Assembly (NCBI GenBank): GCA_036898135.1
Contig: CM072513.1
Location: 40,948,528-41,012,527, forward strand
DNA: 64,000 nt
Reading direction: 5' to 3'
DNA from: Oncomelania hupensis
Lineage: Eukaryota; Mollusca; Gastropoda; Littorinimorpha; Pomatiopsidae
The translations under genes and the position numbers were made by a program. This document shows, in pieces, positions 52,601-58,600 of the stretch; position 1 is the first letter of the stretch, and every line of letters starts with the position of its first letter. Below the pieces are notes generated by a model that was not told the DNA's origin, made no database searches, and saw only the letters and a list, made by a program, of their open reading frames with translations.

Positions 52601-55600
52601 GAGAAGAGTTGGATGGGATTAAATGAGCTTTGAGAAAATCACATTAATCAAAATAGAAGATTTTGTTGTTGTTTTTTGTTTTTTTGAGTTTGTGGTGCTT
52701 TCAGGTGGTAAACAAAGAGAAATGAAAAAGAAAAAGAACACCTCACAGGGAGCTGATGCCTACCGAAAAAACCCACAATGACATCAGAAAAGGCATGCGC
52801 ACAGCAAAGGAGAACTGGGTAGAAGATCAATGCCAGGTCATAGAGAACAGTCTGAACAAGAACAACAGCCAGACTGTGAAGTGGCTGACAAGTGTTGAAC
52901 AGCCCAAGGTCTCCACGATCCAAAGCAGGTCTGGCACATGCCTTACAGAAGAAGGAATGTTGTGTGTTTCAGCTTCATGATTGGAGAGCTGGGCTCAGTG
53001 AGTGAGTTGCAGTTAGTGGCGCCTGTGCTGGTGGTCTCCATGCTATCACGCACCCTACCTGACCTGTCCCTCTGTCACAACACTCTCTCGCTGCTAACAC
53101 AGGTAGGGAGAGACTATGAGTTGTAATGTATTTTGAACACCATACTTAGATGTACTAGTCTGAGACAGTCTAGACTACTTACGGAAGTCTAGAACACAAA
53201 TATAATAATAATAATAATAATAATAATAATAATAATAATAATAATAATAATAATAATAATAATGAACATTTTGACATCAACCCTTCCTCACAAGAGCTCA
53301 TAGTGCTTTGCATTAAATAAATAAATAATAATAATAAATAAATACATAAATAATTAAACAAAGCAAAAGCAAAACATGAAATACCAAATTAGAACATAAA
53401 CATAACATACAGACAAACAACTATGACTGTGTTTTAAGTATTTAACAAAGAAAAGTTCAGGATTTTATGTATTTTATTTAGAATTTTTGAGGGGTCCGGG
53501 TCGCTGTTAATATGTGTGCGAGTGAGCGAACAAAACAGACCACGATTAGACATGAATGCTTTACTTCTTTTTCTTTTTTTTTAAGACAAAGAGTATTGTC
53601 TTTGCATAGATTGAAGATAATAGTTTATACCGTCAGAAAGAAATGAAAGGTTGTTTTCTAGCAAGAGTTTGTGGGTTAAGTAATATAGAGTGGGTACATG
53701 TAGGACTCTTTGTATTATTTTTGTGGTATTATTTTTATTATTACCAATGACTCTGTGGAAGAACTGATAAGATGTCTTTATATATTATCAACTGATAGGC
53801 TGAGAATTTTATAATACTTTTGCTATGTTGTGTTTTTGTTTGAGGTTATACAGTGTTCCTTCCAGTATGAAGAATCCCATATCCAGGAGTACATGCAGGG
53901 TACATGAAAGAAGGCAGTTGTAGGTGAAACAGATTGTCATTGTCCTGGTTGTTGTGACTACAGGTGGTGGAAAAGACAACAGTGATGAGCAATGTGTTCA
54001 TGGACCTTGGACTGCCTGAAGCTCTCTGTAATCTTCTCTTTGCTGTCCAACTAAACAGTCACAGGTTAGTGCGTAATATTCCCTTTAGCAGCATTGTACA
54101 ACTGTACCAATGAGTAGAAGACAATATTTTATTATCTTCATCTTTCTTCTTTGATATAGGCAACCAATTGAACAATGTGCTGCACTTTAATATGATCTTG
54201 CTTTGTCATAGGGTGTGATAAAAGCTACTGTGTGCTTATTTTAATTTTTTTTCTTCTGGAAGGTCTTTCTATCTGCACATTAAAGTCCTATTGCTGGAAA
54301 TGGGTATTAAAAGATTTTGGATGTATGAATGTTTGTGTGAGATTATTATTGGGTTAACTGGGTGTATGTTGGTTAACTGGGTGTATGTTGTACTCACAGT
54401 CTAAATCTTCTATTCCTTGCTGTGTGTTGAAGCACGGATGTGGATGGCGTGAAAAGTGACCAGTTGATATTGTTGGACGTTCAGAACCTGATGTGTCAGC
54501 TGGCTGTCTCTCAGTTCAGGTAAAAATTTTCAACTTTTACTTTCATTTTCTATCCTAATATGTCATTTTCCATCAGAATTGTTGATTATACCACACACAA
54601 ATGTTGATTGTACCATACACATGTTGATTGTACCATACAAATGTTGATTGTTGGATGTGCCACACACAAATTTTGATTGTTGATTAAGCCACACAGAATT
54701 CATGATTGTTGATTGTACCACACACACATTTTGATTGTACCACACAAATATTGATTGTCGATTGTACCACACAGAAGTCATGATTGTTGATTGTACCACA
54801 CACAAATTTTGATTGTTCCACACAAATTTTGATTGTTGATTATGCCACACAGAATTTTTGAATGTATCACACAGAAATGTTGATTGTGATTGTACCACAC
54901 AGAAATGTTGATTGTTGATTGTACCATACAGGAATGTTGATTGTTAATTTGCCACATAAAACTATTGATTGTGGATTGTACCACACAGATTTGTTGATTG
55001 AATCATACAACTGTTGATTGTACCCCATGGATTTTTTGATGGGTGGCAGTGGTAAGAGTTGTGCTATAAGTCTTGTATAAAAGTGTGTTCATTCGCTGAC
55101 AGCTGGTAAGAGTTGTGCTATAAGTCTTGTATAAAAGTGTGTTCATTCGCTGACAGCTGGTAAGAGTTGTGCTATAAGTCTTGTACAAAAGTGTGTTCAT
55201 TCGCTGACAGCTGGTAAGAGTTGTGCTATAAGTCTTGTACAAAAGTGTGTTCATTCGCTGACAGCTGGTAAGAGTTGTGCTATAAGTCTTGTACAAAAGT
55301 GTGTTCATTCGCTGACAGCTGGTAAGAGTTGTGCTATAAGTCTTGTACAAAAGTGTGTTCATTCGCTGACAGCTGGTAAGAGTTGTGCTATAAGTCTTGT
55401 ACAAAAGTGTGTTCATTCGCTGACAGCTGGTAAGAGTTGTGCTATAAGTCTTGTACAAAAGTGTGTTCATTCGCTGACAGCTGGTAAGAGTTGTGCTATA
55501 AGTCTTGTACAAAAGTGTGTTCATTCGCTGACAGCTGGTAAGAGTTGTGCTATAAGTCTTGTACAAAAGTGTGTTCATTCAGCTGACAGCTGGTAAGAGT

Positions 55601-58600
55601 TGTGCTATAAGTCTTGTATAAAAGTGTGTTCATTCGCTGACAGCTGGTAAGAGTTGTGCTATAAGTCTTGTACAAAAGTGTGTTCATTCGCTGACAGCTG
55701 GTAAGAGTTGTGCTATAAGTCTTGTACAAAAGTGTGTTCATTCGCTGACAGCTGGTAAGAGTTGTGCTATAAGTCTTGTACAAAAGTGTGTTCATTCGCT
55801 GACAGCTGGTAAGAGTTGTGCTATATGTCTTGTACAAAAGTGTGTTCATTCGCTGACAGCTGGTAAGAGTTGTGCTATAAGTCTTGTACAAAAGTGTGTT
55901 CATTCGCTGACAGCTGGTAAGAGTTGTGCTATAAGTCTTGTACAAAAGTGTGTTCATTCGCTGACAGCTGGTAAGAGTTGTGCTATAAGTCTTGTACAAA
56001 AGTGTGTTCATTCGCTGACAGCTGGTAAGAGTTGTGCTATAAGTCTTGTACAAAAGTGTGTTCATTCGCTGACAGCTGGTAAGAGTTGTGCTATAAGTCT
56101 TGTACAAAAGTGTGTTCATTCGCTGACAGCTGGTAAGAGTTGTGCTATAAGTCTTGTACAAAAGTGTGTTCATTCGCTGACAGCTGGTAAGAGTTGTGCT
56201 ATAAGTCTTGTACAAAAGTGTGTTCATTCGCTGACAGCTGGTAAGAGTTGTGCTATAAGTCTTGTACAAAAGTGTGTTCATTCGCTGACAGCTGGTAAGA
56301 GTTGTGCTATAAGTCTTGTACAAAAGTGTGTTCATTCGCTGACAGCTGGTAAGAGTTGTGCTATAAGTCTTGTATAAAAGTGTGTTCATTCGCTGACAGC
56401 TGGTAAGAGTTGTGCTATAAGTCTTGTATAAAAGTGTGTTCATTCGCTGACAGCTGGTAAGAGTTGTGCTATAAGTCTTGTACAAAAGTGTGTTCATTCG
56501 CTGACAGCTGGTAAGAGTTGTGCTATAAGTCTTGTACAAAAGTGTGTTCATTCGCTGACAGCTGGTAAGAGTTGTGCTATAAGTCTTGTATAAAAGTGTG
56601 TTCATTCGCTGACAGCTGGTAAGAGTTGTGCTATAAGTCTTGTACAAAAGTGTGTTCATTCGCTGACAGCTGGTAAGAGTTGTGCTATAAGTCTTGTACA
56701 AAAGTGTGTTCATTCGCTGACAGCTGGTAAGAGTTGTGCTATAAGTCTTGTACAAAAGTGTGTTCATTCGCTGACAGCTGGTAAGAGTTGTGCTATAAGT
56801 CTTGTACAAAAGTGTGTTCATTCGCTGACAGCTGGTAAGAGTTGTGCTATAAGTCTTGTACAAAAGTGTGTTCATTCGCTGACAGCTGGTAAGAGTTGTG
56901 CTATAAGTCTTGTACAAAAGTGTGTTCATTCGCTGACAGCTGGTAAGAGTTGTGCTATAAGTCTTGTACAAAAGTGTGTTCATTCGCTGACAGCTGGTAA
57001 GAGTTGTGCTATAAGTCTTGTACAAAAGTGTGTTCATTCGCTGACAGCTGGTAAGAGTTGTGCTATAAGTCTTGTACAAAAGTGTGTTCATTCGTGACAG
57101 CTGGTAAGAGTTGTGCTATAAGTCTTGTATAAAAGTGTGTTCATTCGCTGACTGCTGGTAAGAGTTGTGCTATAAGTCTTGTACAAAAGTGTGTTCATTC
57201 GCTGACAGATGGTAAGAGTTGTGCTATAAGTCCTTGTATAATAAGTGTGTTCATTCGCTGACAGCTGGTAAGAGTTGTGCTATAAGTCTTGTACAAAAGT
57301 GTGTTCATATCGCTGACAGCTGGTAAGAGTTGTGCTATAAGTCTTGTATAAAAGTGTGTTCATTCGCTGACAGCTGGTAAGAGTTGTGCTATAAGTCTTG
57401 TATAAAAGTGTGTTCATTCGCTGACAGCTGGTAAGAGTTGTGCTATAAGTCTTGTACAAAAGTGTGTTCATTCGCTGACAGCTGGAGTGGGGCAGGACAC
57501 TACCAGAACGTGGAACATCTATTCAAACTGCTTCAAGCCATGGAGGACAGGGAAAAGCAAAGACAAGGTATATGTTATTTCTTTCAAGCAGTTATTGAAT
57601 TCTGTATCTGAAAGGTAGGCATGATCCACTATTATTATTGTATGTTGTATCTGAAAGATAGGTATCATCCACTGTTATTATTGTATTGTTCTGAAAGTTA
57701 AGCATGATCCATTGTTATTTTTGGATTTGTTGAGTATGTTGGCATGGCAAAACACAATTTCTAACCTGTTGCTTGTGTGGACAAGATTTCTCAATTGTAT
57801 AAATATAAAATCTGGCTGTTCCATGTTTTAATCATTTTTCATCAATTCAATATTTATTTATTTATTTGTTTTTGTTTGTTTTTAAAATAAATATTGAAAA
57901 GCTTTAGTTGGATTGAGAGATTAATTTTAAAATATAAGGTGTATTTTTATATTAAAAAAAAAAAAGAAAACAACAGATTGCTGCAGTAACATGATCTCAT
58001 TATTCCAGCTTTAAGCTTTAGTACTGAATATTATTGGACATGTGCAGAAGGTGGATTGATGAGAGCAGAGACTGCACGTGCCTTGCAGTATGCCATGGTG
58101 GTGCGAGTGTTGGAAGTTGTACAGGAACTCTGTGATGGCCCAAAGACTGTCAGCTCAGCACAAGGTGGGCATTACTTATTAACTTCAAATGTCACTTTGG
58201 AACACAGTATGAAGTGGACTTTTTGACATTATACTATGTATTGATTTCCACAAGTGCCGTATATTTTCATTTATCAAGTAGAGTTTGACTAAAACTGATA
58301 TCACATGGTAATTTACCTATCACAGATGACGATGTTTCTAGCAAGCTATGAAATACACAAGTCGTAAGAATACAGGGCCTACTTTAACCCAGTTACGAAT
58401 CGAATTCTCCTATCCCTTTTCTGCAAAGATGAAAAACCAAACGTTCTTCTTGTATTTTCTAAGGCGAGCTAAAGCAGCAAGGTTTTATTTCCAAACCTTC
58501 AATAATTCACAAATACTACAGCAATGATGGTCTCAAGGAAATGAAGAGTCAAAAGAGTAAATGGACCGATTGAGTCATCAAATGAAACTGTCATTGTTTT

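Follow-up and report, generated by a model that had tools for sequence, protein, structure and literature searches.

How can a gene be spliced when the acceptor of one of its exons stands repeated dozens of times immediately upstream of that exon? The question is raised by a 64,000-nucleotide stretch of the genome of the snail Oncomelania hupensis (GCA_036898135.1, contig CM072513.1, positions 40,948,528 to 41,012,527 of the forward strand; hereafter the window, in which all positions are counted), where a tandem array of 54-bp units ends on an exon of the LYST gene. An initial annotation, made from the letters of the window alone, had described this array and had proposed that it might be removed by recursive splicing, act as a splice decoy or create a copy-number-dependent poison exon. 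The analysis reported here leads to a different reading, to which we assign a probability of about 0.77: the array would be a minisatellite of the type called mirage, lying across the 3′ boundary of an intron in LYST, likely born by microhomology and likely spliced out whole within one ordinary intron.

A 54-bp minisatellite spans an intron-exon boundary of LYST

Tandem Repeats Finder (TRF) identified a minisatellite at 55050–57485 on the forward strand, with a period of 54, 45.1 copies and 98% matches. Cutting it at TGGTAAGAG yielded 45 units: 30 are identical to the consensus, eight differ from it only by C29T and seven carry other changes. In the consensus unit, the trinucleotide CTG separates the acceptor AG from a donor-like GTAAGAG, and the sequence from this GT to the next AG measures 51 nt. 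GTAAGAG is kept in 45/45 units and the acceptor AG in 44, the exception being unit 39, which has TG; the full TTCGCTGACAG is present in 41 units, the last one among them. The copy number, the near-identity of the copies, the donor-like site in every unit, the number of retained AGs and the presence of the real acceptor within the units had all been claimed before, and all were recovered by TRF and by unit splitting. Neither TGGTAAGAG nor CGCTGACAG occurs elsewhere in the window, on either strand.

At its right end the array continues into a coding exon. Position 57481 is the end of the last unit, whose TTCGCTGACAG (57471–57481, forward strand) is the real acceptor according to the sequence and to tblastn (7.04 bits); the sequence reads on as TTCGCTGACAG followed by C TGG AGT. 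The array thus crosses the exon-intron boundary, as the exon starts at 57482, and the exonic part within the copied unit is 1–4 nt long. The gene had been named LYST beforehand. We used a 41-exon chain, which is our own model and which homology overlaps in 27 exons; residues 1650–2480 of the protein it encodes matched 15 proteins at E ≤0.001 among 7968 scored candidates. The best match is LYST of Littorina saxatilis (E 7e-218), and further LYST matches come from Babylonia, Pomacea, Aplysia, Elysia and others, some of them under other names. When Littorina LYST was used as a tblastn query, its exons were colinear from 22616 to 60753, and its residues 2411 (at 54517) and 2412 adjoined across the array-bearing intron. 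On the basis of these homologies, LYST is confirmed as the host gene, and the matches point to a gastropod, perhaps a caenogastropod, as the likely bearer of the gene.

The exons flanking the array, numbered 28 and 29 after the initial annotation, are both on the forward strand. The upstream exon covers 54433–54519 in the exon chain (tblastn, 54404–54517) and ends with the donor CAG/gtaaaaat, which scores 7.08 bits. The downstream exon, which starts with C TGG AGT, covers 57482–57567 (tblastn, 57480–57563, with 68% identity to Littorina), in keeping with the acceptor position of 57481 given earlier. The intron between them (54520–57481, 2962 nt) holds two repeat arrays, of which the 54-bp array accounts for 2432 nt. 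The other, a degenerate AT-rich minisatellite of the TGTTGATTGTACCACACA type found in the TRF rows at 54580–55021 (forward strand), occupies most of what is left, so that only ∼90 nt of the intron are non-repeat. A 43-bp repeat of 3.3 copies (57592–57730), which starts 24 nt past the donor of the next intron, adds to these two, and three arrays therefore crowd round one LYST exon. Within the window, the 54-bp array is the sole large array at 10 nt or less from a modelled exon edge, and short simple repeats touch the modelled donors at 59838 and 60350.

The array is unique in the genome search, and large arrays are common

A 221-base query taken from the array was compared with the 1.45-Gb genome in a search that scores the best candidates only and skips very common words, so that a diverged copy may escape it: all 14 matches fell inside the LYST array. 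Identical arrays elsewhere, named beforehand as an observation that would speak against a role in splicing, were thus not found in this one search. Scanning viral_contigs and genome_contigs, viral and prokaryotic collections nearly without animal DNA, for exact 27-base matches to the unit gave none, as an intron of an animal would lead one to expect, and no significant likeness to the unit was detected in the rest of the window (6/20 and 5/20 shuffles scored as well). An origin from a transposon or an introner was rejected on these three results.

We then asked what the size and uniformity of the array may signify. In 200 kb sampled from one contig as 20 stretches (including 10,241 N), four other arrays of at least 20 copies were present (stretches L015, L016, L018 and L019), among them a 58-bp array of 42.9 copies (L018:6895–9373). 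Big minisatellites are therefore frequent in the sampled contig: the LYST array itself is beyond chance, yet large arrays are common in this genome sample, and neither its size nor its uniformity is evidence of selection. The retention of splice sites follows from the high identity of the units and, for this reason, is no evidence of selection either. Eight private changes were counted by hand, with approximate positions for indels; one of the eight lies in the 9-nt donor and one in the AG, as compared to ∼1.3 and 0.3 expected from length, and the C to A change of unit 40 touches position −3 of the donor 9-mer. As changes hit the donor and the AG about as often as their length predicts, the retention of the sites was rejected as a sign of selection.

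A microhomology between two TGG triplets may have founded the array

The register of the unit, which runs from an intronic TGG to the C preceding the TGG of the exon, suggests how the array arose. The first triplet (55050–55052, forward strand), read at the left edge of the array, and the second (57483–57485, forward strand) would be the two halves of a likely 3-bp microhomology, and both lie in a similar context: the TGG of the first unit follows CAG, and so does the C-TGG of the exon. The exonic triplet is a conserved Trp codon. In the alignment of LYST proteins at this junction, from which 5 of the 15 proteins are missing as unaligned, Trp is found in 8/10 aligned rows, that is, in all eight of the rows P0001–P0008, which include seven named gastropods. 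Because TGG is the sole Trp codon, this conservation makes it likely that the TGG of the exon predates the array. A duplication from TGG to TGG gives exactly the unit seen, which suggests that the array was founded by duplication via this microhomology. Such an event would have copied the acceptor and the first exon base onto an intronic TAAGAG, creating CTG/GTAAGAG. One row of the alignment, P0006 (a Batillaria LYST prediction), is without most of the exon upstream of the same intron, which may stem from faulty prediction or from an intron that is difficult there too.

Unequal exchange or slippage would then have amplified the unit while holding the interior uniform. Six of the eight private changes lie in units 38–42, near the exon-side edge (P 0.001, simulation), and a uniform interior with private changes crowded in a few units resembles minisatellite turnover. 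In the amphioxus globin gene BflGb6, the interior of a comparable array is homogenised and the edge is excluded from this process; in the LYST array, units 43–45 and, at the left edge, units 1–9 are again near the consensus (identical to it or one base off).

Splice signals and reading frame of the units

Splice sites were scored with generic animal matrices on 21 donors and 22 acceptors chosen by hand from the exon chain, leaving out unsupported or doubtful sites. Two of the donor-like sites were scored: that of unit 1 (55052–55058, forward strand) reached 8.08 bits and that of unit 2 9.08 bits. With the latter value the unit donor beats 17 of the 21 gene donors, including the true upstream donor; its predicted pairing with U1 is middling (−8.0 kcal/mol versus −8.3 kcal/mol for the upstream donor), and 8/21 gene donors pair more strongly. 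About 1.6% of 54-nt stretches are expected to contain so strong a donor on a given strand, and of the 61 minisatellites from the sample and the window, the LYST unit scores highest for a donor, both strands considered. The real acceptor is of average strength, tied at rank 10 among the 22 when these are counted from the weakest. In the last unit, yTnAy is matched only twice, by TTCAT (A at 11 nt from the exon) and by CTGAC (at 3 nt). No RNA hairpin was detected in the unit, folding being no better than in shuffles (z-scores 0.36 to 0.70).

We next translated the products of each unit end. When a unit end is used and the remaining array is retained, 44/45 ends give a stop (FSW-stop for 43 and FRW-stop for one), one of these 44 ends being without its AG; the last unit end alone translates open, as FSWSGA. 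By translation, use of an inner acceptor with retention of the rest would hence bring in the premature stop that characterizes a poison exon. When CTG is instead used as a micro-exon, one to four of them add 1 to 4 Cys and the frame stays open. The splice phase and the in-frame gain of one codon from one micro-exon had been deduced correctly, and the statement that more than one unit leads to TGG TAA is right for retained units and wrong for several micro-exons, at least for the one to four tried. A 521-aa open frame also covers the array on the antisense strand (55550–57115). It is likely a by-product of the period, which is divisible by three and thereby gives rise to long open frames in the array; with this attribution, an array-encoded protein was provisionally set aside.

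Comparison with known boundary repeats

In amphioxus, mirages are minisatellites that duplicate an intron-exon boundary, a kind to which the initial annotation did not refer; they are described in Adh3, in the globin genes BflGb6 and BflGb9 and in troponin C, with similar repeats in PGBD5 (PMC3087553, PMC3902484). The LYST array resembles them as a boundary-spanning tandem repeat with AG and GT in many units, and its unit length falls within the 10–72 bp of Adh3 (PMC3087553). Despite these AG and GT, the Adh3 data and RT-PCR on the globins suggest regular splicing (PMC3087553), which is likewise stated for amphioxus Adh and troponin C (PMC3902484). The two cases differ in animal group and gene and in scale, BflGb6 haplotypes having 6 and 3 units of 150–160 bp as compared to 45 units of 54 bp; moreover, the LYST array has an exonic part of only 1–4 nt and carries, in its consensus unit, a donor-like site 3 nt past the acceptor.

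Three other systems share part of these features. In a potato RdRp gene, a duplicated segment that contains the parental acceptor also crosses the boundary; however, there was a single duplication, the new intron was detected and its donor came from the exonic segment, whereas the LYST array has 45 units and a donor from the intronic side (PMC4974935). Human internal tandem repeats in segmental duplications are likewise boundary minisatellites able to alter splicing, but they consist on average of four 30-bp units and belong to primate paralogs (PMC2812944). Recursive splicing uses tandem acceptor-donor pairs, which are juxtaposed at intronic ratchet points (PMC8605326). The LYST unit is similar to the ratchet points of Drosophila in having a donor close after an acceptor, but it differs from them in the CTG that lies between the two, and in that ratchet points are found mostly in long introns (the Bx and Ubx examples measure ∼31 and 73 kb) whereas the LYST intron measures 2962 nt (PMC8605326).

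A partial literature search, judged mostly on titles and abstract openings, yielded no description of a mirage in a mollusc. Judging by its title, a 1995 paper by Turri reportedly describes a minisatellite of human IFI6 that supplies multiple splice donors. For gastropods, the available part of a paper on Conus introns deals with microsatellites only (PMC3862624).

How the array is probably spliced

In exon definition, an acceptor whose exon has a true donor is favoured. Only the last acceptor of the array precedes such an exon, and it would therefore be favoured: the spliceosome would pair the exon donor at 54519 with it, and the inner site pairs would be mostly silent. By analogy with the amphioxus arrays, the dozens of spare splice signals in LYST are likely ignored. 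Leaky use of inner acceptors is predicted to produce FSW-stop transcripts, which would likely be cleared by nonsense-mediated decay. When a 130-aa junction peptide was used to search for a transcript piece of the species, none of 16 candidates was found at E ≤10.

Several observations weigh against a mirage-type array removed in one ordinary intron. Its normal splicing is carried over from the amphioxus mirages and is likely only to the extent that this analogy holds, and human repeats at exon-intron boundaries do alter splicing in some genes (PMC2812944). The unit donor outscores the true upstream donor, though their pairing with U1 is similar, and finding so strong a donor under pure drift would be mildly surprising, the case having been chosen for its appearance. 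The left flank holds no remnant of an older unit (222/300 shuffles scored as well), which leaves the TGG as the sole trace of the founding event. Finally, that units 43–45, at the very edge, are near the consensus is unlike a simple edge effect.

In a rival reading, the inner acceptors play an active role. Their use would rise with unit number, giving FSW-stop transcripts and lowering LYST, so that the array would act as a copy-number-dependent poison element. The immediate stop from 44/45 unit ends argues for it, as do the 11 bases of the real acceptor in 41 units and the unit donors, which stand above most scored gene donors and could help to define pseudo-exons of at least 57 nt. Nevertheless, amphioxus mirages are reported without splicing disturbance, splice-site retention is not above chance, and the branch-site signal, limited to TTCAT and CTGAC, is weak. 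A copy-number poison effect and a decoy action, both suggested in the initial annotation, are possible from the layout of the units, and we consider the poison element unlikely overall. A bolder version, in which the array is a rheostat on LYST, is a shade less probable: 43 intact decoy acceptors would compete with the real one, within three codons, each wrong choice would end in FSW-stop, and unequal exchange would adjust copy number and thereby LYST dose from one individual, or even one cell, to another.

Stepwise removal, through 51-nt micro-introns or recursive jumps that leave CTG micro-exons and add Cys codons, is very improbable, even though a GT...AG of 51 nt is present in each consensus unit, a 54-nt step keeps the frame and one to four micro-exons stay open. 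The recursive splicing proposed earlier fits the CTG poorly: the acceptor and the donor are 3 nt apart instead of juxtaposed, and each recursive step would therefore leave a Cys codon. The junction reads FSWSG (or FSWAG, LSWTG), with no extra residue, in 7/7 informative rows of P0001–P0008, although these are from other species whose introns were not seen; in addition, the shortest intron of the exon model is 80 nt long (138 nt between two homology-supported exons), as compared to 51. It is harder still to credit that the array is an intermediate of intron gain, with one unit on its way to a genuine exon or to a newly gained intron. Boundary duplication did create an intron in the potato RdRp gene (PMC4974935), and such an origin of introns has been put forward for the amphioxus mirages by their authors (PMC3087553), but a copied exonic part of 1–4 nt is too short to make an exon without new sites. 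Least probable of all is an assembly artefact, in which the true array would be shorter, longer or wrongly joined: although the amphioxus BflGb6 array seems misassembled in the genome draft (PMC3087553), private variants mark several LYST units, the array is flanked on either side by exons of a single gene in the right order, and it sits, with the copy number given in the assembly, in a contig of 97.9 Mb.

Other features of the window

Upstream of the LYST exons, a region on the reverse strand (18418–20463) gave an RVT_1 reverse transcriptase match (E 1.5e-18), in frame over 18418–19359, and the open frame next to this match showed a weak CCCH zinc-finger match. Further upstream, 5979–6839 (reverse strand) matched the dimerisation region of hAT transposases (E 1.9e-9).

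Significance

As a mirage-type minisatellite, the LYST array would extend this class from amphioxus to a mollusc, and its units far outnumber those of the amphioxus globin array. It suggests that a conserved residue with a single codon (Trp, TGG) at the start of an exon can seed such arrays by microhomology. It would also provide a natural test of acceptor choice among 44 near-identical sites, for which exon definition predicts use of the last, whereas scanning or intron definition could predict use of others.

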